The position numbers were made by a program, and so were the translations under genes. A stretch of 64,000 nucleotides of DNA, from positions 620,001 through 684,000 of the forward strand of contig NZ_STGI01000002.1 of assembly GCF_004804275.1 (NCBI RefSeq), given 5' to 3'. Below, piece after piece: positions 53,514 through 62,783 of this stretch (its first letter is position 1; each line of letters begins with the position of its first letter). Source of the stretch: Herbaspirillum sp. ST 5-3. GTDB taxonomy: Bacteria > Pseudomonadota > Gammaproteobacteria > Burkholderiales > Burkholderiaceae_D. The notes beneath the pieces were generated by a model. That model was not told where the DNA came from and did no database searches. It saw only the letters and a list, made by a program, of their open reading frames with translations.

Positions 53514-54272
53514 CTACGCAAATTGTCGCCCTGACTCCGGAGAGCGCACCAGTGCAGGCAGACATGCCGCACCGAGTTCCGTAAAGATCCTGTGCACTTG
53601 CACGCCGTCTGCCCCGGCCGCATAGGCTGCCTGCGCGTCCTCGGCATTTCGTATGCCGCCCACTGCAACAAGACCGGCCCTGCCGCGCAATCGATCAGCC
53701 AGCAGTCGCAGTCGATCAAGCCGGCGAACGCTCTCAGGAAGCACCGCGATGATCGCGTCGAAACCTTCGGCGACCGCCGCCTCTGCCAGGACAAGCGGAA
53801 ACGCGTCTTGAACACCAAGTGGCATCTTGAGCACGAGTGGGACATGGCACCCCTGTTCTGATTGACGCACGTCAGCGACAGTTTGAAAGGCATGTTGGAG
53901 CAGCGGCAGGTGCGCGGCGTTGAGCAAGGATTGATAGCGACGGGCACTCAGATTGAAGCAGACGTAATCGGCAATATCTCGCGCGCCACGCAATCCTGAA
54001 GCCCACTCGTCGGGAAGAGCGGATGGCGGGACGCCGCTGCTCATGCCTATGCCGATCCCGATACGTGGTTTGACAGTCAGGTCCGCCGAGAATGCCGCGA
54101 GGCGTGAGACCAGCGCGGCGAGGCCGGGATTGCCGCCTTCCTCCGGCCGCGGCGTGACGGTGCCGAATTCCACGCTGTCGAAGCCTGCGGCAAGCAATTC
54201 GGCTGCGCGGCTGCCATCCTTGTCGATGCCGCCGGCCAGTCCCAGCCGGCACGGCCATGATCGCTTGTTCAT
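53514..54272 (-). CDS. Dihydroorotate dehydrogenase-like flavoprotein
   Basis: 252-residue TIM-barrel protein similar to PyrD. Conserved parts are GLAGGIDKDGSRAAELLAAGF with FGTVTPRPEEGGNPG, a CFNLSA strand, LVLKMPLGV with the FMN-contacting lysine, and the FMN-phosphate site AVGGIRNAEDAQAAYAAGADGVQ. The PyrD catalytic-loop sequence SSPN is not evident (the position reads NLSARRYQ) and the protein is about 80 residues shorter than PyrD. So a dedicated pyrimidine enzyme is doubtful. It overlaps the SerC-family gene in an ATGA and ends the pqqE operon. Confidence 0.72.
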   Translation of the reverse strand: MNKRSWPCRLGLAGGIDKDGSRAAELLAAGFDSVEFGTVTPRPEEGGNPGLAALVSRLAAFSADLTVKPRIGIGIGMSSGVPPSALPDEWASGLRGARDIADYVCFNLSARRYQSLLNAAHLPLLQHAFQTVADVRQSEQGCHVPLVLKMPLGVQDAFPLVLAEAAVAEGFDAIIAVLPESVRRLDRLRLLADRLRGRAGLVAVGGIRNAEDAQAAYAAGADGVQVHRIFTELGAACLPALVRSPESGRQFA

Positions 54273-55378
54273 CCCTTGCACCTACTGAATTCGGCCATGA
54301 AGTCGACCAGGGCGGTTACGCCAGCCAAGGGCATGGCGTTGTAGAGGCTCGCCCGCAGGCCGCCCACATGACGATGGCCGCGCAGATTTATCAAGCCGGC
54401 CTTTTCCACATCGATCAGGAAGCGTTCGGTCAGGCTGTCGTCGGCAAGGTGGAAACGCACATTCGTCATCGAGCGATGCGCGGGGACGATCGGCGCGGTG
54501 TAGAAGCCATCGCTGCTGTCGATCGCTCGATACAGCAGGTCGGCCTTGCGCCGGTTGGCTTCTGCCATGGCGGACAGTCCACCTGATTCCGCAATCCATT
54601 CGAAGACCAGCGCCGCGAGATAAATCGCCATGACGGGCGGCGTGTTCAGACATCCATCCTGCTCGGCCTGCAGGCGATAGCAAAGCGGTGATGGCGCCGA
54701 CTGCGCGGGACGCCGCAGCAGGTCCTCGCGCACAATGACGACGGTCATGCCGGACGGCCCGATGTTCTTCTGCGCACTGGCGTAGACGAGACCGAAGCGC
54801 GAGATATCGAGAGGCTCTGCGAGAAAACTGGAAGTGGTGTCCGCCACCAGCGGAACCTCACCCGTGTCGGGCCATGCGGGATAGGCAAGGCCGTCCACGG
54901 TCTCGTTTGCAGTGATGTGGCAGTAGGCGCAGCCCTGCGGCAAACGCCAGTTGTCCACGATCGGAGCGGCGAGGACTTCGCTTCCGTTGTGTCTGGCGAC
55001 CACGCTGACTTCCGCAAAGCGCGCTGCTTCCTGCATGGCGCGTCGCGACCAGTAGCCCGAGTCCGCATAGGCTGCGGTTCGCAGGCCGGATGCCGGATCG
55101 AGGAGATTCATCGGGACCGCGGAAAACTGGTGCATGGCACCGCCGGCCAGGAAAAGCACGCGATAGTTGGAAGGAATGTCGAGCAGTTGCGTCAGACGCT
55201 CGCGCGCCGACTCCAGCACTGCACGAACGGCGTTGCCGGTGAACGGCCGCTCGATGGCTGCTGCGCCATCCGCGCCGCGCCGGAACAAGATATCGCCCGC
55301 GCGCGCCAGGACGGCGTCCGGCAACCGGGCGGGCCCGGACGCGAAATTCCACACCGTGCCGGATGAAGAAAGCGTCAT
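54269..55378 (-). CDS. Phosphoserine aminotransferase family protein (SerC-like)
   Basis: 369-residue class V PLP enzyme. WNFASGPARLPDAVL at the N-terminus, LFLAGGAMHQFSAVPMNLL, VADTTSSFLAEPLDIS and the PLP lysine in VYASAQKNIGPSGM, then NTPPVMAIYLAALVFEW and LRGHRHVGGLRASLYNAMP are typical of SerC. SerC makes phosphoserine for serine and pyridoxal-phosphate synthesis. Here it lies 4 bp after a PuuD-like gene in the pqqE operon and away from the usual serC-pheA-aroA setting, so it may be a specialised paralogue. Start at the ATG 55378. Confidence 0.88.
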   Translation of the reverse strand: MTLSSSGTVWNFASGPARLPDAVLARAGDILFRRGADGAAAIERPFTGNAVRAVLESARERLTQLLDIPSNYRVLFLAGGAMHQFSAVPMNLLDPASGLRTAAYADSGYWSRRAMQEAARFAEVSVVARHNGSEVLAAPIVDNWRLPQGCAYCHITANETVDGLAYPAWPDTGEVPLVADTTSSFLAEPLDISRFGLVYASAQKNIGPSGMTVVIVREDLLRRPAQSAPSPLCYRLQAEQDGCLNTPPVMAIYLAALVFEWIAESGGLSAMAEANRRKADLLYRAIDSSDGFYTAPIVPAHRSMTNVRFHLADDSLTERFLIDVEKAGLINLRGHRHVGGLRASLYNAMPLAGVTALVDFMAEFSRCKG

Positions 55379-55382
55379 CGTC

Positions 55383-55889
55383 TCATCCCGCCAGCACACC
55401 GCCATGGGAACCGCCGGCCATGAAGAACAACAGCGGAATCGACAACATGGTATTGGTACGCGAAGACAAATGCGTGATCCGCGAGCAGCGCAGCCGCTCT
55501 TCCACCGTGGCCGGTTTCAGACCGAGGACCTTTTGCTGATGCGGCCAGAGCACCAGCCATACATTGGCCATCATCAGCGTGCCGATATAAGCGCCGATAC
55601 CGATGGGCGCCAGCGCGCCCTGCAATTCGAGCGCGCCGCCCAGCCAGCCGCGCTGCCAGAGCATCAGGATGCCGGCGCACCAGGCGACGACAGAGGCCCA
55701 GCGGAAGAAGCCATGCTCGCGGTTCAGCAGTGCCTGGAAGCGCGGGCTCTGGTCGTCGATCAGGTCGGCGGCGGTCAGCGGCTGCCAGGACGGTCGCTGC
55801 ACAACGCTCGAATAGTTGTGCCCGACCCAGATGATGCCAGCGATGAAATGTGTCCAGCGCAGCAGGAGATCGAAGGGAATGCTGTCCAT
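55383..55889 (-). CDS. PuuD-like (urate oxidase N-terminal type) four-helix membrane protein
   Basis: 168 residues with four hydrophobic segments: LLRWTHFIAGIIWVGHNY, RWASVVAWCAGILMLW, GAYIGTLMMANVWLVLW and MLSIPLLFFMAGG. The H-x(8)-H in the first helix and the ILPHQQ-like WPHQQKVLG resemble the membrane part of urate hydroxylase PuuD (PF06181), which may bind heme. It is much shorter than PuuD and has no cytochrome c domain. It follows a 31-aa membrane peptide by 6 bp in the pqqE operon. Function here unknown. Confidence 0.7.
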   Translation of the reverse strand: MDSIPFDLLLRWTHFIAGIIWVGHNYSSVVQRPSWQPLTAADLIDDQSPRFQALLNREHGFFRWASVVAWCAGILMLWQRGWLGGALELQGALAPIGIGAYIGTLMMANVWLVLWPHQQKVLGLKPATVEERLRCSRITHLSSRTNTMLSIPLLFFMAGGSHGGVLAG

Positions 55890-55895
55890 GATGCT

Positions 55896-55991
55896 TCATC
55901 CCGCAAGCAGCCGGACCAGTGCGGCGAGCAATGTCGTCAGCATCACGCCGAGCAGTATCGTGCCGGTCGCTGTGTCGTAGGGGTGGCGCAT
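55896..55991 (-). CDS. Small single-pass membrane peptide (31 aa) in the pqqE operon
   Basis: Begins MRHPYDTATGTILLG and continues as one hydrophobic helix ending LVRLLAG. The ATG directly follows the pqqE stop (TGAATG), and GGAGG lies six bases upstream inside the end of pqqE. The strong ribosome site and tight packing between two genes support a real product. It may be a subunit of, or assembly factor for, the PuuD-like protein. Confidence 0.65.
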   Translation of the reverse strand: MRHPYDTATGTILLGVMLTTLLAALVRLLAG

Positions 55992-57137
55992 TCAATCCTC
56001 CATGAAGGAGGTGGACACCGCGGCGCTGGTGCGCTTGAGCAGCGGCTTGCGAAAACGCAGCGGGCGCACGACGTTCTTGACCGTGTCCTGCACGATGTGG
56101 TGATGCGGCGAGCGGCTGCAGGCCGGATCGGTGTTGGTCGGATCGCCGGTCAGCAGGAAGGCCTGGCAGCGGCAGCCGCCGAAATCCTTTTCCTTTTCGG
56201 AACAGGAGCTGCATGGCTCGGGCAGCCAGTCGAGGCCGCGGTACTTGCGGAACAGCGGCGATTCATGCCAGAGCCAGGACAGCGGTTTGTCGCGCACCGA
56301 CTGGAAGTCCAGCCCCGGGATCACGCGCGCTTCCTGGCAGGGCATGGCCACACCGTCCGGTGCGATGGTCAGGTGGATCGCACCCCAGCCGTTCATGCAG
56401 GCTTTCGGGCGGCCTTCGTAGTAATCGGGAATGACGAAATAGATCGTCATGCTGTCGCCCAGCTTCTTGCGCCAGCGTTGCACGGTGGCTTCCGCTTCGC
56501 GCACTTCCTCCAGGCTGGGCATCAGTTCCTCGCGGTTGACCAGCGCCCAGTTGTAGTACTGCAGGTTGGCGAACTCGATGTACTCGACGCCGATCGACGA
56601 GGCGAACTCGCACATGGCATCGATGTCGCGGATATTCTGCTTGCAGACCGGCATGTTCATCACCATCGGAAATCCGTGCGCCTTGATCAGGCGAGCGGCC
56701 TCCAGTTTGAGGGCATGCGCCCTGGCGCCGACCAGTTCATCGGTCAGTGCCGCCTTGGTCGATTGCAGCGACAGCTGCACCTGCTTGAGGCCGGCTTCCT
56801 TCAAGGCGATCATGCGCGCTTCGGTGAGGCCGATGCCGGAGGTGATGAGATTGGTGTAGTAGCCGAGGCCGTCGGCATAGGCGACCAGCTCTTCGAGGTC
56901 CTCGCGCAGCAGCGGTTCGCCGCCGGTGAAGCCGAGTTGCAGCGCGCCCAGCTCGCGGCCCTCGCGCAGTACCCGTTTCCATTCCTCCGTTGCCAGCTCG
57001 TGTTGCGCATAGTCCTTGAAGTTCAGCGGGTTGTTGCACCACGGGCATTTCAAGGGGCAGCGGTAAGTCAGTTCCAGTGTCAGCCACAGCGGCTTGCCGT
57101 CGCCGTCCAGGCTGACGCCGCGCGATTCCTTCGGCAT
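55992..57137 (-). CDS. pqqE: PQQ biosynthesis radical SAM protein PqqE
   Basis: Cross-links the glutamate and tyrosine of PqqA, the first step of PQQ synthesis. The radical-SAM cluster is C27-x3-C31-x2-C34 (YRCPLKCPWC). The C-terminal SPASM domain has ACMNGW, MPCQEAR, and CSSCSEKEKDFGGCRCQAF. Length 381. I use the ATG at 57137 (MPKESRG), preceded by AAAGGA at seven bases; an upstream frame to 57191 has no such site. Unusually, it is not next to pqqABCD but heads a separate minus-strand operon. Confidence 0.96.
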   Translation of the reverse strand: MPKESRGVSLDGDGKPLWLTLELTYRCPLKCPWCNNPLNFKDYAQHELATEEWKRVLREGRELGALQLGFTGGEPLLREDLEELVAYADGLGYYTNLITSGIGLTEARMIALKEAGLKQVQLSLQSTKAALTDELVGARAHALKLEAARLIKAHGFPMVMNMPVCKQNIRDIDAMCEFASSIGVEYIEFANLQYYNWALVNREELMPSLEEVREAEATVQRWRKKLGDSMTIYFVIPDYYEGRPKACMNGWGAIHLTIAPDGVAMPCQEARVIPGLDFQSVRDKPLSWLWHESPLFRKYRGLDWLPEPCSSCSEKEKDFGGCRCQAFLLTGDPTNTDPACSRSPHHHIVQDTVKNVVRPLRFRKPLLKRTSAAVSTSFMED

Positions 57138-57305: not shown

Positions 57306-58232
57306 TCAGAAATCGGCAGATACCGCAACGGAGGCCAGCGCCGCGATGCATACGGCGGCCATGTCGGCGGCAAGCGCGTTGTGCCCGCCGGCCTCGACAT
57401 GGCGCAGTACCGCATGCGGCAGCGCGCGCTGCAGGTGCTCGGCGGCGCGCGGCGGACAGACTGTATCGCGGCGGCCCTGCACGATGCAGACGGGTAGATT
57501 GCGCAAGCGCGAACACGAGGCGAGCACCTCGGCCACATCGGAGAAGCAGGCGTGGGCGAGGTAATGCGCCTGGATCATGGTCTTGGCGAGACGCCGTGCA
57601 TCCGGCACGTCCGACAGCGGCGGTTCGCCCATCAGCGCGCGTTCGTAGTCGAGCCAGCGGCGGGCCGCGGCGGTATCGCCGGCCAGCAGGCGTGACGTGT
57701 AGGCGCGCAGCAGGTCGCCGCGCTCCTCCTCGGGAATGCCGTCGGCGAGTGCCTTCCATGCGTGCGGCGCGGCGCCTTCGGCATCGGTTACGTAGCGCCG
57801 CAATTCCTCGTCGGAGCCGAGGAAGATGCCGCGCAATACGAGCCCGGCGACACGCGACGGATGCTGTCCGGCGTAGACGAGTGCCAGCAGGCTGCCCCAG
57901 GAGCCGCCGAAGACGATCCAGCGTTCGATGCCGAGCGCTGTGCGGATGCGCTCGATATCCTCGACAAGATGCGCGGTCGTGTTGCACCTCAGGCCAGAAA
58001 GGGGTGTGCTTCGACCGCAACCGCGCTGGTCGAACAGAACCGCGCGAAAGCGCGCCGGGTCGAAGAATCGGCGGTGTTCGGTGGAACAGCCGCTGCCGGG
58101 GCCGCCATGCAGAAACACCACCGGTATGCCGTCCTGTCGCCCGCACTCTTCCACATGCAGGACATGTCCGTCGCCGACCGGCAGTTGTTGCGTGCGGTAC
58201 GGCGTCGTCGGCGGAAAGAGTGGGTCGGGCAT
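57306..58232 (-). CDS. pip: Proline iminopeptidase (S33 family alpha/beta hydrolase)
   Basis: Removes N-terminal proline from peptides. The HGGPGSGC oxyanion motif, the DQRGCGRS segment, the nucleophile serine in GGSWGSLLA, the aspartate in VQGRRDTVCPP and the histidine in EAGGHNA are all present. 308 residues, normal for the family. 23 bp after the response regulator and part of its operon. Its place beside pqqE raises the possibility that it helps trim PqqA-derived peptides, which is speculative. Confidence 0.9.
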   Translation of the reverse strand: MPDPLFPPTTPYRTQQLPVGDGHVLHVEECGRQDGIPVVFLHGGPGSGCSTEHRRFFDPARFRAVLFDQRGCGRSTPLSGLRCNTTAHLVEDIERIRTALGIERWIVFGGSWGSLLALVYAGQHPSRVAGLVLRGIFLGSDEELRRYVTDAEGAAPHAWKALADGIPEEERGDLLRAYTSRLLAGDTAAARRWLDYERALMGEPPLSDVPDARRLAKTMIQAHYLAHACFSDVAEVLASCSRLRNLPVCIVQGRRDTVCPPRAAEHLQRALPHAVLRHVEAGGHNALAADMAAVCIAALASVAVSADF

Positions 58233-58255
58233 CACGGCAGGGCGATGTGCGCGGC

Positions 58256-58903
58256 TTACGCCTCCATCAAGCCGGAGCGCATCGCGATCACCGCAAGTTC
58301 GGCCGCATTGCTCGCATTGAGCTTTTGCTTGATGTGGTACAGGTGCGTTCCGACGGTGCTCGCGCTCAGATGGAAATCCTGCGCGACCTGGTTGACGGAA
58401 CGTCCCTGCGCCAGTTGCAGGAAGACAGTGAATTCCTTCTCCGTCAGCGTATCGGCAGGATGCGCGGTTCCTGAAATCTGCGCGAGGGCGACCTGCTGCG
58501 CAAGTTCCGGGTCGAGATAGCGCCGCTGCTGGCTGACTTGGCGCACCGCCTGCAGGAACTCGTCGGGAAGGCAGCGTTTGCACAGGTAGCCGATGGCGCC
58601 GGCCTTGAGCGCGCGCACCGGGATGAGCGCGTCCTGGTGTGCGGACAGCATCAGCACACGCGCACCGGGATGGCGTGCCGACAGGCGTTCGAGCGCGGCA
58701 AGTCCGCCGATGCCCGGCATCGATACGTCCATCACCAGTACGTCCGGCGCCAGCTCGCCATAGAGGCGCAAGGCCTCTTCGCCGCTGCCGGCTTCGCCGG
58801 TCACGACCGCACCAGCACCTTCCAGTAACAGGCGAAACCCCATGCGCACGATGGCATGGTCGTCGGCGAGCAGGATCTTCAGGCCGGAAAGGGATGTGCT
58901 CAT
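58256..58903 (-). CDS. NarL/LuxR-family response regulator
   Basis: Two-component DNA-binding regulator of about 215 residues. The receiver has the acidic pair in LLADDHAIVRMG, the phospho-acceptor aspartate in VLVMDVSMPG and the lysine in GYLCKRC. The C-terminal LuxR-type HTH reads LTEKEFTVFLQLAQGRSVNQVA and STVGTHLYHIKQKL. Start at the ATG 58903, overlapping the sensor kinase stop. Similar regulators control PQQ-dependent dehydrogenases in Pseudomonas (AgmR/ExaE type), so regulation of the pqq genes is a reasonable inference. Confidence 0.93.
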   Translation of the reverse strand: MSTSLSGLKILLADDHAIVRMGFRLLLEGAGAVVTGEAGSGEEALRLYGELAPDVLVMDVSMPGIGGLAALERLSARHPGARVLMLSAHQDALIPVRALKAGAIGYLCKRCLPDEFLQAVRQVSQQRRYLDPELAQQVALAQISGTAHPADTLTEKEFTVFLQLAQGRSVNQVAQDFHLSASTVGTHLYHIKQKLNASNAAELAVIAMRSGLMEA

Positions 58904-60294
58904 GTTGTTTGCTCCACGGGATGGTTTTTCGTGACAGGCAGGCGTACGCACAGGCGCGTGCCGCCGCCGGCCGAGGTATCGAACCGGAGTTCTCCTGCCA
59001 GGGCGACGGCGCGCTCGCGCATGCCGGCCAGGCCGAGGCCGCAGCCGGCCGATGATGTCGGCGCGCCCAGACCGCGGCCATTATCGGCAAGGACCAGTTC
59101 CAGCCAGCCGCCGTCGCCGGTTTCAAGCCGCCGCAGGGAAATCTCCACCCGCGTCGCCGCCGCATGGCGCACCACGTTCGTCAATCCTTCCTGCGTGATG
59201 CGGACAATCGCCTCGATGACGCTGTCGCTGACTGGTTCGTTGCCGCCGGCAAGCTGCATGCCGAGACGGATATCCGGATAGTGCCGCTGCCAGGCCTGCA
59301 GGTAGCGTCCCAGCGCGTCATCCACGCTGGCGCCATGGCTGCCCTGTTGCGGGCGCAGGCGATGCAGGATGGTGCGCACGCCGTCCTGCATCTGGCTGGT
59401 GACGGCGACGATACTTTGCGCCGGGGCATGCAGTGCCGGCTGGCCGGCGGTGCGCTGCGCGATCGCGCCGGCGAGGGCGCGTACGGCGGTGATGCCCTGC
59501 GCCAGCTCATCATGCAGTTCGCGGGCGATGCTGCGGCGGTCGGCTTCGATCCGGGCCTGCAGGCGTTCATTCAGTTCCCTCTCGCTGCCGAGACGCACGT
59601 TGTCATTGACCGCTTCCACGAGACGGTCCGCCATGCCGTTGAATGCCTTTGCGAGGCGGCCGAGTTCCGGCTCGGGGAAGACCGGCAGGCGGGTATCGAA
59701 GCAGCCGCGCCCGGTGCGGTCCAGTGCTGCCATCACCTGCCCGAGCGGACGAAGCGCGCGGTCGAGCGCATGGCGGACCGTGAGGAACAGCGCGGCAAGC
59801 AGGACGGCGGCCCAGCCTGCCATCGCGCAGAGATCGTCCCAGGCGTCCAGCGTCGCGCGCGAGGCATCCGGATGGAGTATCAGCGCCAGTTCGCCCGCGT
59901 CGATGCGGCGCGTGGCGAAGCCGGTCTCGACTATGGCGGCAAACCAGCCGGGAGCGGCGCGGCCAGCCTTGTAGGTTGGGCGCGGCGACAGGTAGCGGCG
60001 CGCGCCGGTGGCATCGACGACCTCCAGCGCATTGGCGCGGATCCGGCCCACGGCCCGCAGGTGCGCGAGCAGTTGCTCGCTGCTCAATCCGCCTTGCCGG
60101 GCATGCAGTTCGCGCGCCGAGACGGTCAGCCATTGTTCGGCGACGCGCGTGGCGGCTTCCACTTCCTCGTGGATGCCATCCCGCGTCTGCTTCAGCCACA
60201 GGCTCCCCAGCGCCAGCACGAGCGCGGCGGCGAGGGCCGTCAGCACAAGGCTGATGCGCGTGTGCAGGCGCATTTCATCCAGTCGCAACGTCAT
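58900..60294 (-). CDS. NarL-type sensor histidine kinase (HisKA_3)
   Basis: Membrane sensor of about 464 residues. Two membrane segments (LVLTALAAALVLALGSLWL and WAAVLLAALFLTVRHAL) flank a periplasmic domain of about 120 residues, followed by a HAMP domain. The HisKA_3 motif RSIARELHDELAQGITA carries the phospho-acceptor histidine, and the ATPase has ITQEGLTNVVRHAAATRVEI and LVLADNGRGLG, GLGLAGMRERA. Start at 60294; ATG 60273 is possible. Divergent from pqqB. Confidence 0.92.
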   Translation of the reverse strand: MTLRLDEMRLHTRISLVLTALAAALVLALGSLWLKQTRDGIHEEVEAATRVAEQWLTVSARELHARQGGLSSEQLLAHLRAVGRIRANALEVVDATGARRYLSPRPTYKAGRAAPGWFAAIVETGFATRRIDAGELALILHPDASRATLDAWDDLCAMAGWAAVLLAALFLTVRHALDRALRPLGQVMAALDRTGRGCFDTRLPVFPEPELGRLAKAFNGMADRLVEAVNDNVRLGSERELNERLQARIEADRRSIARELHDELAQGITAVRALAGAIAQRTAGQPALHAPAQSIVAVTSQMQDGVRTILHRLRPQQGSHGASVDDALGRYLQAWQRHYPDIRLGMQLAGGNEPVSDSVIEAIVRITQEGLTNVVRHAAATRVEISLRRLETGDGGWLELVLADNGRGLGAPTSSAGCGLGLAGMRERAVALAGELRFDTSAGGGTRLCVRLPVTKNHPVEQTT

Positions 60295-60562
60295 GGCGGC
60301 ACTCACTCCTGATGGGATCCCGGGACCCGGCCCTTCCATCAACGCAAATTTCGAGCCAAGCCCGGGAAGGGGCGAGCGTGCAGTGCTGATACTGCGCACC
60401 GCAAGTCGTCAATCCATTACGCAACACCTGTCACTGTCCAGAAATCGAACAAGCTGTACCAAAGTGGAACACTCACCTTGATGGCCAACTCCAGAAAACC
60501 ATGATGGCGTTTTCGTAAATCCCGGTACGCGGCGCGTTGGCCGCCGCGCCCATACTGAACGC
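60295..60562. other. Divergent intergenic region between the sensor kinase and pqqB
   Basis: No gene seen. It must contain the promoters for the sensor-regulator-pip operon (leftward) and pqqB (rightward), and so is a likely target for the response regulator. Confidence 0.5.
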
Positions 60563-61489
60563 ATGAAACTGCTTGTACTTGGATCTGCAGCGGGCGGCGG
60601 CTTCCCGCAATGGAATTGCAACTGCCGCAATTGTGACGGCGTGCGCAAGGGGACGGTGCGCGCGCTGCCGCGCACCCAGTCGTCGATCGCGGTCAGCACG
60701 GATGGCCGCGATTGGGTGCTGTTCAACGCCTCGCCGGACATCCATGCCCAGATCCGCGCCAATCCTTGCCTGCAGCCGGGCAGGGGGCTGCGCGATACCG
60801 GTATCGCGGGCGTGGTCCTGATCGACGCCCAGATTGACCACACCACCGGCCTCTTCATGCTGCGCGAAGGCAGGCCGCTCGATATCTGGTGCACGCCGCA
60901 GGTTTGCGAAGATCTGAGCACCGGCAACCCGATCTTCAATGTGCTGTCGCACTTCTGCACGGTGCGCTGGCAGCCGCTGCAGGTGACGCCGCCGGTCGCC
61001 TTCACCGTGCCCGCCGCGCCGGGACTGCGCTTCACTCCCGTGCCGCTGGCCAGCAAGGCTCCGCCTTATTCGCCGCACCGGCACGACGCGCATGCCGGCG
61101 ACAACATCGGCGTGCTGATCGAGGAAATCGCCACTGGAAAAAGAATCTTCTACGCGCCCGGTTTCGGCGCCATGGAGGACCATCTGGAACCCTGTATCGG
61201 CGATGCGGACTGCATCCTGCTTGACGGCACCTTCTGGACCGATGACGAAATGATCCGCATGGGCCTGTCCGCCAACACCGCGCGCGGCATCGGGCACCTG
61301 CCCCAGAGCGGACCGGGCGGGATGATGGCCTTGCTGTCGCGCTACCGCAAACCGCGCAAGGTGCTTATTCATATCAATAACACCAATCCGATCCTGGACG
61401 AGGACTCGCCGGAACGCGCCGAACTGACGCGCGCCGGAATCGAGGTGGCGTGGGACGGCATGCTGATCGACACGGGAGACAAGCAATGA
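60563..61489 (+). CDS. pqqB: PQQ biosynthesis protein PqqB
   Basis: Metallo-beta-lactamase-fold hydroxylase acting on the Glu-Tyr intermediate. [20 protein letters not shown] with three zinc-binding cysteines, [26 protein letters not shown] and [16 protein letters not shown] are diagnostic. 308 residues. Overlaps pqqC in ATGA. First gene of the plus-strand pqqBCAD set; normally pqqA comes first. Confidence 0.96.
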
Positions 61490-62244
61490 AGATGAATGAC
61501 ATGCGGCCATGGACCGATGAGGAATTCGAAGCCCGCCTGCGTGCCATGGGCGAGCGCTACCATATCCATCATCCCTTCCAGGTGATGATGCACCGCGGCC
61601 AGCTCAGCCGCGAACAGATCCAGGGCTGGGTGGCGAATCGCTACTATTATCAGATCAACATTCCCATCAAGGACGCGGCGATTCTTGCCAACTGCCCGGA
61701 ACGCGAAGTGCGTCGTCATTGGGTGCAACGCATTCTCGACCATGACGGCTTCAATGGAGAGGATGGCGGCATCGAGGCCTGGATCCGGCTCGGCGAGGCA
61801 GTGGGTATGTCGCGCGAGACGATCGTGTCGCAGAAGCTGGTGCTCCCCGGCGTGCGCTTCGCCGTTGACGCCTATGTGAACTTCGCTCGCCAGCGCCCCT
61901 GGCAGGAAGCGGCAGCGGCGTCGTTGACAGAATTGTTCGCTCCGACCATCCATCAGTCCCGCCTCGACTTCTGGCCGAAATACTATCCATGGATCGAGCC
62001 GGAAGGTTACGACTATTTCCGCCGCCGCCTGAGCGAAGCGCCGCGCGACGTCGTCAACGGACTGCGCATCACGCTCGGACACTTCACTACGCGCGAGTTG
62101 CAGGAGCGTGCTTTGAATATCCTGCAATTCAAGCTCGATATCCTCTGGTCCATGCTTGATGCGATGCTGCTGGCGTATGCCGATGTGCAGATCGAGGGCT
62201 GGGGTGCGTATAGACCGATGGGGGCGGGCACTACCCAATCATGA
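61486..62244 (+). CDS. pqqC: PQQ synthase PqqC
   Basis: Catalyses the final eight-electron oxidation and ring closure to PQQ without a metal. The [13 protein letters not shown] start, [42 protein letters not shown] and [22 protein letters not shown] regions are all conserved PqqC blocks. 252 residues, normal length. The ATG at 61486 overlaps the pqqB stop; 110 bp separate it from pqqA. Confidence 0.96.
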
Positions 62245-62313
62245 TTTTCATGAGCGGCTTCTGGCAAAAGCATGCTGTTGCGTGCCGGCGTGAATGCCGA
62301 TAATCAGTCAAGG

Positions 62314-62330
62314 GGCGGCATGTCGCCGCC
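62314..62330 (+). promoter_or_regulatory. Hairpin in the pqqA leader
   Basis: GGCGGC-ATGTC-GCCGCC, 24 bp before the pqqA ATG. It could stabilise a processed pqqA transcript or end part of the pqqBC read-through. Confidence 0.45.
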
Positions 62331-62353
62331 TCATTCAACAAAGGAGACTTGCC

Positions 62354-62428
62354 ATGACTTGGGAAACCCCCGCTTTCTGTGAAATTCGCCTCGGCTTCGA
62401 GGTAACCGCCTACGTCTACGTGCGCTGA
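62354..62428 (+). CDS. pqqA: PQQ precursor peptide PqqA
   Basis: 24-residue precursor from which PQQ is built. The sequence is MTWETPAFCEIRLG then FEVTAYVYVR, with E16 and Y20 as the conserved E-x3-Y pair linked by PqqE. AAGGAGA lies seven bases upstream. It sits between pqqC and pqqD, not at the head of the cluster. Confidence 0.96.
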   Translation: MTWETPAFCEIRLGFEVTAYVYVR

Positions 62429-62435
62429 GCGGCCT

Positions 62436-62467
62436 CCGGGCGGCGGACGAGTGACCCTTCCGCCCGG
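62436..62467 (+). promoter_or_regulatory. Hairpin between pqqA and pqqD
   Basis: Perfect 8-bp stem CCGGGCGG/CCGCCCGG with a 16-nt loop, starting 8 bp after the pqqA stop. A 3' stem like this can protect a short abundant pqqA transcript and reduce read-through into pqqD. There is no T run. Confidence 0.5.
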
Positions 62468-62486
62468 CGCCGCAGCCCCTGCTGCC

Positions 62487-62783
62487 ATGACCAACACTGC
62501 ACCAGAAACCTCAACGAGCGGCCACGCCTGTCCGAGGCTGTCGCCGCACTTCGTCTTCCGCTGGGAGAACAGCCAGAATGCCTACATCCTGCTGTATCCG
62601 GAAGGCCTGATCAAACTCAATCCGTCCGCCGGCGAGATCCTGAAGCGCTGTGACGGCAAGCAAAGTGTCGACGCCATCATCGCCGACCTCCAGTCGGCAT
62701 TTTCCGACGCTACCGGCGAAGTCGCCGAAGGCGCGCGTTCCTTCATCGACATCGCACGCACCAAAGGCTGGCTGCGCTGCTGA
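62487..62783 (+). CDS. pqqD: PQQ biosynthesis chaperone PqqD
   Basis: Binds PqqA and presents it to PqqE. The protein of about 98 residues has LSPHFVFRWENSQNAYILLYPEG, INLNPSAGEILKRCDG-like KLNPSAGEILKRCDGK, and a C-terminal FIDIARTKGWL, all typical of PqqD. I use the ATG at 62487; a GTG at 62451 would lie in the loop of the preceding hairpin. Because PqqD works with PqqE, separation of the two genes on opposite strands is notable. Confidence 0.93.
   Translation: MTNTAPETSTSGHACPRLSPHFVFRWENSQNAYILLYPEGLIKLNPSAGEILKRCDGKQSVDAIIADLQSAFSDATGEVAEGARSFIDIARTKGWLRC

Follow-up and report, generated by a model that had tools for sequence, protein, structure and literature searches.

Introduction

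How nitrate-respiring bacteria obtain pyrroloquinoline quinone (PQQ) for their quinoprotein dehydrogenases is a question that a five-gene operon could answer. The operon lies in a stretch of 64,000 nucleotides from Herbaspirillum sp. ST 5-3 (the window; G000:C12:620001-684000 in a 5.8-Mb genome). It joins pqqE to the genes of a small membrane peptide, a PuuD-like membrane protein (UoxN), a paralog of the aminotransferase SerC (SerC2) and a paralog of the dihydroorotate dehydrogenase PyrD (PyrD2). Comparison across genomes suggests an alternative branch of PQQ synthesis, probably independent of O2, of which the operon would be the distal half; belief and doubt in this reading are about equal.

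The cluster and the anaerobic idea are already in print. The section on the cluster in PMC12423496 (Mol Microbiol 2025) describes pqqAED-puuD-serC-pyrD in Hyphomicrobium denitrificans and other denitrifiers. In H. denitrificans the pqqA, pqqD and pqqE of the cluster are second copies, beside a canonical pqqABCDE, and the cluster is speculated to provide O2-independent final steps of PQQ synthesis. According to the same section, the known last steps use O2, which PqqC needs, and Klebsiella and Pseudomonas aeruginosa, with the canonical genes only, make no PQQ anaerobically (work of others cited in PMC12423496). This was the sole paper with both pqqE and puuD that a literature search found. New here are the tests of conservation, phylogeny, PqqA type, active sites and narG, together with the split arrangement of the locus in the window.

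Conservation and Distribution of the Cassette

The five genes form a head-to-tail run on the minus strand (57137-53514), with no space for promoters between the frames. The pqqE stop abuts the start of the peptide gene (TGAATG), followed by a 6-bp gap, a 4-bp gap and an ATGA overlap. Frames and junctions, when read again, agree with the packing of pqqE, 31-residue peptide, four-helix protein, SerC-like and PyrD-like genes given in an earlier note on this DNA. That note had also proposed one functional unit linked to PQQ and, as a check set in advance, a survey of genomes for the same operon. The survey found the neighbours conserved beside pqqE in distant bacteria, which supports the proposed unit; a lack of such conservation in relatives is what the note had named as refuting it.

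In the comparison sets G denotes a genome, L a locus and g a genus, and G000 is the window genome. The order pqqE, UoxN, SerC2, PyrD2 (the cassette) is the same in 13 loci, which belong to ten genomes (the window's included), one metagenome-assembled genome (L035) and two alphaproteobacterial plasmids, and which span nine genera with L035 not counted. Among 97 genomes of the family, close relatives of PyrD2 (52-55% identity) occur in three genomes of another genus (g13), where the order is pqqE-peptide-UoxN-SerC2-PyrD2-pqqA2-pqqD. L035 is arranged as the window, at 78-97% identity. Among 399 genomes of the order, six (the window's included) have a UoxN of at least 61% identity, and all six carry pqqE-UoxN-SerC2-PyrD2. 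A sample of 398 genomes of the phylum added one more clear carrier, G505, whose UoxN is 58% identical. The UoxN search matched 32 genomes of this sample, and the loci examined were those of G618, G138, G505, G110 and the window; diverged cassettes are possible among the remaining matches, and L036 (24% identical to PyrD2) stands outside the 13 loci. The loci of G618 and G138, considered as carriers, hold UoxN alone and were not counted. Within about 8 kb on each side, 15 loci of more distant UoxN relatives have no match to PqqE, SerC2 or PyrD2. A scan of genome contigs with a single protein led to two loci only.

On the two plasmids, one from Methylovirgula sp. HY1 and the other from Acidibrevibacterium fodinaquatile, the order is pqqA-pqqD-pqqE-UoxN-serC-PyrD2, and in the latter an M48 metalloprotease gene comes next. 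Across both entire plasmids, tblastn found neither pqqB nor pqqC, while it did detect the two genes on a control plasmid (L185). When frames of at least 60 residues were compared among nine locus groups, only pqqE, UoxN, SerC2, PyrD2 and pqqD were common to at least five groups (opposite-strand shadows aside); pqqA is too short for this comparison and was located by motif. The operon is the distal part of a separate pqqA-pqqD-pqqE cassette, without pqqB and pqqC on the two plasmids, which the earlier note had not seen.

PqqE and PqqA of the Cassette

In a tree of 30 PqqE sequences, the 13 of cassettes and the 17 ordinary ones are split by a branch with support 97/95, and the cassette label needs one change, against a mean of 10 after shuffling. 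The window PqqE stands on the cassette side with 12 others, and not with the PqqE of ordinary pqq loci. The ordinary PqqE sequences from relatives of the window genome cluster with Paraburkholderia, Burkholderia, Cupriavidus and Variovorax (98/98). The rows of this tree are the parts matched by tblastn, not whole proteins, and L147 was omitted as the same gene as the canonical pqqE of L159.

The precursor peptide separates in the same manner. A PqqA core pattern matched at 23 sites, spread over 11 of the 12 genomes; the exception was G618, which lacks the cassette. Eleven sites, one per cassette genome, are of the cassette type (PqqA2; ...C[DE][IL]RLGFEVTAYVY[VT]R), whereas the other twelve are ordinary (...R[FI]GFE[VI]TMY..NR) and have no Cys. 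With Val allowed at the third place both plasmid peptides are also of the cassette type, so that PqqA2 is distinct in 13 of 13 cases (11 genomes and two plasmids). The E-x3-Y motif is unchanged in PqqA2. The Cys is invariant and, in the window peptide (62354-62428), lies seven residues before the Glu of this motif; it is absent from the 12 ordinary PqqAs compared.

Both pqqB and pqqC are present in all 12 genomes searched, 11 of which are cassette genomes. At least two pqqE genes occur in six of these 11 (G053, G095, G400, G159, G134 and G505), and the same six also have ordinary pqqA, pqqB and pqqC. G076 has one pqqE and two kinds of pqqA, and its pqqC lies at most 0.7 kb from a contig end, where the assembly may have lost a second pqqE. 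The remaining four, G000, G849, G204 and G448, have one pqqE and one match to the PqqA pattern, both of the cassette type, together with pqqB and pqqC; the pqqE of G000 is the single match at E 1e-50 or better. If PQQ is made in these four, PqqB and PqqC must accept the product of the cassette-type PqqE (PqqE2), since PqqA2 and PqqE2 are the sole copies found there. By this comparison the cassette apparently branches from the ordinary pathway after the cross-link, and both branches share one intermediate. A limited literature search found no earlier statement of such a shared intermediate. The window genome is a useful case in this respect, as its one PqqA2/PqqE2 set apparently supplies the PqqB/PqqC route as well as the new one.

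As a separate observation, G095 (92% complete, 2% contaminated) holds three pqqB, three pqqC and three pqqE genes, on contigs C64, C94, C117 and C123 (L125, L145, L149 and L039).

Active Sites of SerC2 and PyrD2

The window genome has a separate SerC and a separate PyrD, which would leave the paralogs SerC2 and PyrD2 free for another task. In SerC2 the pyridoxal 5'-phosphate (PLP) lysine motif A-Q-K-N is invariant in the 12 sequences aligned. On the other hand, the SHRG motif of SerC has become [PT]F[TSG][GH] in 13 of 13, so that Phe stands in the place of His, and Thr, Ser or Gly in that of Arg. SHR is retained in the genome's own SerC and in three solved chains among the alignments listed (20 matched). 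This Ser-His-Arg, H41-R42 of E. coli, is presumably what binds the side chain of the substrate in SerC. The earlier note had also suggested amino-acid recycling. This finds no support: SerC2 no longer has the residues by which SerC binds its substrate, and no amino-acid pathway gene beside the cassette is common to at least five of the nine locus groups. Of its overall interpretation the PQQ-linked functional unit is supported and amino-acid recycling is not.

The 13 PyrD2 sequences are without the INRMGFNN segment, an intact NxSSPNT, ATNTT and the GGLSG lid, the closest remnant being NLSSPFA in L091. Save for small variants, these segments are present in the six canonical PyrD shown of the 15 aligned (same family), and we take them to form the orotate pocket of class-2 dihydroorotate dehydrogenase (DHOD). 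The lysine of the flavin mononucleotide (FMN) site and VGG[IV] are kept in 13 of 13, from which FMN is predicted by motif. PyrD2 also lacks the N-terminal quinone-binding region of class 2: the alignment of the window protein to the profile pairs its residue 6 with position 54, and the region is missing too in the 12 PyrD2 aligned and in L159 (start taken at MGLEF). The predicted structure is a DHOD barrel, with Z 26.7 to E. coli DHOD over 234 residues at 2.0 A.

UoxN and the Membrane Peptide

Of the 295 positions in the Urate_ox_N profile (PF06181), UoxN matches only 172-237, and it matches no other Pfam domain. With 168 residues it has neither the full N-terminal membrane domain of PuuD nor a cytochrome c domain. 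The fold predicted by AlphaFold2 (pLDDT 88) consists of four long helices. H24, N25, E58 and H59 are present in 13 of 13 cassette UoxN proteins and in none of the 28 other family members aligned. H117, 10 of 10 in one alignment, was considered as a further invariant mark of the cassette and rejected, since it is found in all cassette proteins but that of Acidibrevibacterium, which has Asn.

A search of the UoxN model against the PDB with Foldseek gave no match at E 0.001 or better. A second structure comparison returned four-helix bundles of many kinds, including cytochrome b561 (Z 10.3) and cytochrome b6 (Z 10.1), all below the Z of about 13 that helical bundles may reach without kinship, so that a haem-binding role of UoxN is only a guess. 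Kinship with HemJ is not claimed either: the hhalign probabilities are 4% and 8% (the HemJ alignment took 29 of 30 sequences), and four of 38 UoxN relatives match HemJ (UPF0093), at a best E of 0.02.

A peptide of the 31-residue type is found in 12 of 13 cassettes, with an unsure start codon in L075 and L159 and without annotation in L092; none was seen in L091. At L086 (7486-8074) a weakly similar 31-residue peptide stands just upstream of a UoxN relative for which no PqqE match was found within about 8 kb. Judging by this locus, the peptide and UoxN may form a module of their own.

Taken across SerC2, PyrD2 and UoxN, the active-site changes look like changed substrates and not decay. A membrane electron-transfer step, which the earlier note had put forward, remains a fair inference, because the operon combines a four-helix membrane protein, a single-span peptide and a flavoenzyme without the class-2 N-terminal region.

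Association with Nitrate Respiration

The narG gene of respiratory nitrate reductase is present in nine of the 11 cassette genomes, G000 among them, compared with 18 of 69 pqqE genomes without the cassette (Fisher p = 0.0007). Counted by genus, the figures are 6/7 against 9/36 under a majority rule (p = 0.005) or 12/36 if any member counts (p = 0.015), where the count of seven cassette genera places G849 with g1. As controls, 69 of 70 genomes were used, G121 being left out. Their class, without the cassette, is defined by UoxN identity (at least 61% in the order's cassette members, 50% in the next best), by which a more diverged cassette would be missed.

The surroundings of several cassettes hold related genes. 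On the Methylovirgula plasmid, the gene for a nitrate reductase alpha subunit is accompanied by narH, narJ and narI, 16-22 kb from the cassette. NnrS is near the cassette in two families (L074 and L075), and L074 also has NirJ (haem d1 synthesis) and a cytochrome d1-domain protein nearby. At L071 a regulator of the Fnr/FtrB-like kind adjoins the cassette.

Layout of the Locus

The plus-strand genes pqqB-pqqC-pqqA-pqqD (60563-62783), absent from the earlier note, begin 3.4 kb from pqqE, which makes of the two halves one divergent PQQ locus (Table 1). The minus-strand stretch between pqqE and pqqB (57306-60399) is filled by an aminopeptidase, a response regulator and a kinase. The aminopeptidase-type hydrolase is also present in L035 and was not found in the g13 loci; a role in peptide trimming is possible. 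The kinase and regulator genes adjoin the cassette in L035 and in the g13 loci (L037-L039) as well.

Table 1. Features of the divergent PQQ locus (positions in the window)
Feature	Positions	Strand	Basis
PyrD paralog (PyrD2), FMN-type TIM barrel	53514..54272	-	separate PyrD at G000:C12:19451
SerC paralog (SerC2), class V aminotransferase	54269..55378	-	43% identical to separate SerC in genome
UoxN, 168-residue four-helix membrane protein, Urate_ox_N/PuuD-like	55383..55889	-	PF06181, 50 bits
Single-span membrane peptide, 31 residues (span judged by eye)	55896..55991	-	TGAATG junction; similar peptides in 12/13 cassettes
pqqE, cassette type (PqqE2), radical SAM/SPASM, 381 residues	55992..57137	-	TIGR02109 over full length, 470 bits (cut-off 381); PF04055 and PF13186
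Prolyl aminopeptidase-type hydrolase, directly upstream of pqqE	57306..58232	-	TIGR01249, 267 bits (cut-off 260)
NarL/LuxR-type response regulator	58256..58903	-	PF00072 and PF00196
Sensor histidine kinase (true start uncertain)	58900..60399	-	HAMP, HisKA_3, HATPase_c
pqqB	60563..61489	+	TIGR02108, 427 bits
pqqC	61486..62244	+	TIGR02111, 370 bits
pqqA, cassette type (PqqA2), 24 residues	62354..62428	+	motif; Cys before E-x3-Y
pqqD	62487..62783	+	homology to cassette pqqD, two of them annotated pqqD

Further radical S-adenosylmethionine (SAM) proteins are encoded near some cassettes. Beside the Methylovirgula cassette (L091, 12980-14559) lies a second peptide-modifying radical SAM pair, cbpA/cbpB (TIGR04163, 719 bits). 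A B12-binding radical SAM protein is near the cassette in two families (L074, 2638-4506; L075, 12359-14221), and that of L074 bears a distant likeness to BchE (73 bits, far under the cut-off).

Discussion

In the proposed O2-independent branch, PqqE2 and PqqD would join the Glu and Tyr residues of PqqA2 by the cross-link of the ordinary pathway, which is suggested by family membership and by the kept E-x3-Y motif. A protease would then release the cross-linked residues, perhaps the neighbouring aminopeptidase in the window and the M48 enzyme in Acidibrevibacterium. Beyond this shared intermediate the branch would bypass PqqB and PqqC, whose steps use O2. UoxN and its 31-residue partner would take the place of an oxygenase, oxidizing the tyrosine-derived ring and passing the electrons to the respiratory chain. 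SerC2 would carry out PLP chemistry on an amino group of the cross-linked diamino acid, and PyrD2, with its emptied dihydroorotate pocket, would do the work of PqqC by dehydrogenating the ring system. A single set of PqqA2, PqqD and PqqE2 in the window genome would supply two routes, PqqB/PqqC under aerobic conditions and the cassette branch. The product, the order of the steps, the electron acceptor and the cofactors are put forward as proposals, and the assignment of individual steps to enzymes is a guess of low probability.

Several points weigh against this branch. Its O2 independence draws on sequence comparison and co-occurrence, and in the cluster section of PMC12423496 it is offered as speculation only. 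All 11 cassette genomes retain pqqB and pqqC, so the cassette is not shown to suffice alone, and the chromosomes of the plasmid hosts may carry both genes, the search having covered the plasmids only. A divergent PqqA could escape the exact pattern, and the genomes with both sets would equally fit a second product. With regard to nitrate, G204 and G448 carry the cassette without narG. This gene, the sole denitrification marker surveyed, is a proxy for anaerobic growth and not a proof of it; the Fisher test is only crudely corrected for kinship, with g115, g72 and g82 represented among cassette genomes and controls alike and G505 coming from outside the controls' order. Control by Fnr as a general rule was considered and discarded: in the 350 bp upstream of the 13 cassettes, the exact TTGAT-N4-ATCAA occurs once (L092), a box with one mismatch once (L074) and boxes with two mismatches in L035 and L037, and no box was found in the other nine, the window operon among them.

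The alternative that survives best, though we regard it as unlikely, is that the cassette turns PqqA2 into another redox cofactor, a relative of PQQ. SerC2 and PyrD2 would process the cross-linked residues, and the invariant Cys may take part. In a version of equally low probability, its makers would be nitrate-respiring and plasmid-bearing proteobacteria; SerC2 and PyrD2 would tailor the cofactor, and the UoxN pair would serve as the electron outlet. A second product would account for the ordinary pqqE beside the cassette in six of 11 genomes, each with ordinary pqqA, pqqB and pqqC, for the Cys and distinct C-terminus of PqqA2 (13/13) and for the two plasmids without pqqB and pqqC. However, the E-x3-Y motif is unaltered, and in G000, G849, G204 and G448 the sole PqqA and PqqE found, both of the cassette type, stand beside kept pqqB and pqqC, so that their product seems to feed ordinary PQQ synthesis. 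If the product is nevertheless not PQQ, the operon would lead to a new peptide-derived cofactor.

Somewhat less probable again is an accessory role, in which the extra genes aid the ordinary route when oxygen is low, or scavenge shunt products such as amino-acid adducts of PQQ. The constant presence of pqqB and pqqC in the 11 cassette genomes searched agrees with it. By contrast, the plasmid cassettes, with their own pqqA, pqqD and pqqE and no pqqB or pqqC on the plasmids searched, look like a pathway with its own entry. It is improbable that the operon serves a particular PQQ enzyme or regulon, for example in alcohol oxidation governed by the neighbouring two-component system, with SerC2, PyrD2 and UoxN acting on the substrate or the electrons of that enzyme and not on PQQ. 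A kinase and response regulator do adjoin the cassette in the window, L035 and g13, and a PQQ alcohol dehydrogenase gene (TIGR03075) lies near two cassettes (L039 and L159), but each of these neighbours is confined to two of the nine locus groups. Chance or loosely selected co-location is scarcely credible, and nothing was found in its favour: the genes keep one order at all 13 loci, chromosomal or plasmid-borne and in distant bacteria, so the cassette is no chance cluster.

Comparison with Known Systems

HemG and HemJ are O2-independent membrane oxidases of haem synthesis, in which a small membrane protein stands in for an O2-using oxidase and drains electrons into respiration. For UoxN they offer an analogy of working only, homology to HemJ being not established (hhalign 4-8%).

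In mycofactocin synthesis, MftA is processed by a PqqE-like radical SAM enzyme together with an FMN enzyme. The cassette resembles this synthesis in that it would lead to a peptide-derived redox cofactor through a PqqE-like radical SAM enzyme and an FMN TIM-barrel enzyme. It differs in the precursor and in the flavoprotein, which is like class-2 DHOD and not of the MftD type. We know of no counterpart of the aminotransferase or of the PuuD-like membrane protein in mycofactocin synthesis.

The cluster of Hyphomicrobium denitrificans has the same kinds of genes as the window cassette (PMC12423496, section on the cluster). There it is a second copy beside canonical pqqABCDE. In the window, pqqA2 and pqqD are instead next to pqqB and pqqC, on the strand opposite to pqqE, and the search of the genome detected neither pqqA nor pqqE of the canonical type. 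That section of PMC12423496 does not mention the membrane peptide, the grouping of PqqE, the PqqA type or the active-site changes. Compared with the canonical pqqABCDE, the window likewise holds a PqqA with E-x3-Y, PqqB, PqqC, PqqD and PqqE. Unlike it, the window has pqqE on the opposite strand with four non-pqq genes, and both its PqqA and its PqqE are of the cassette type.

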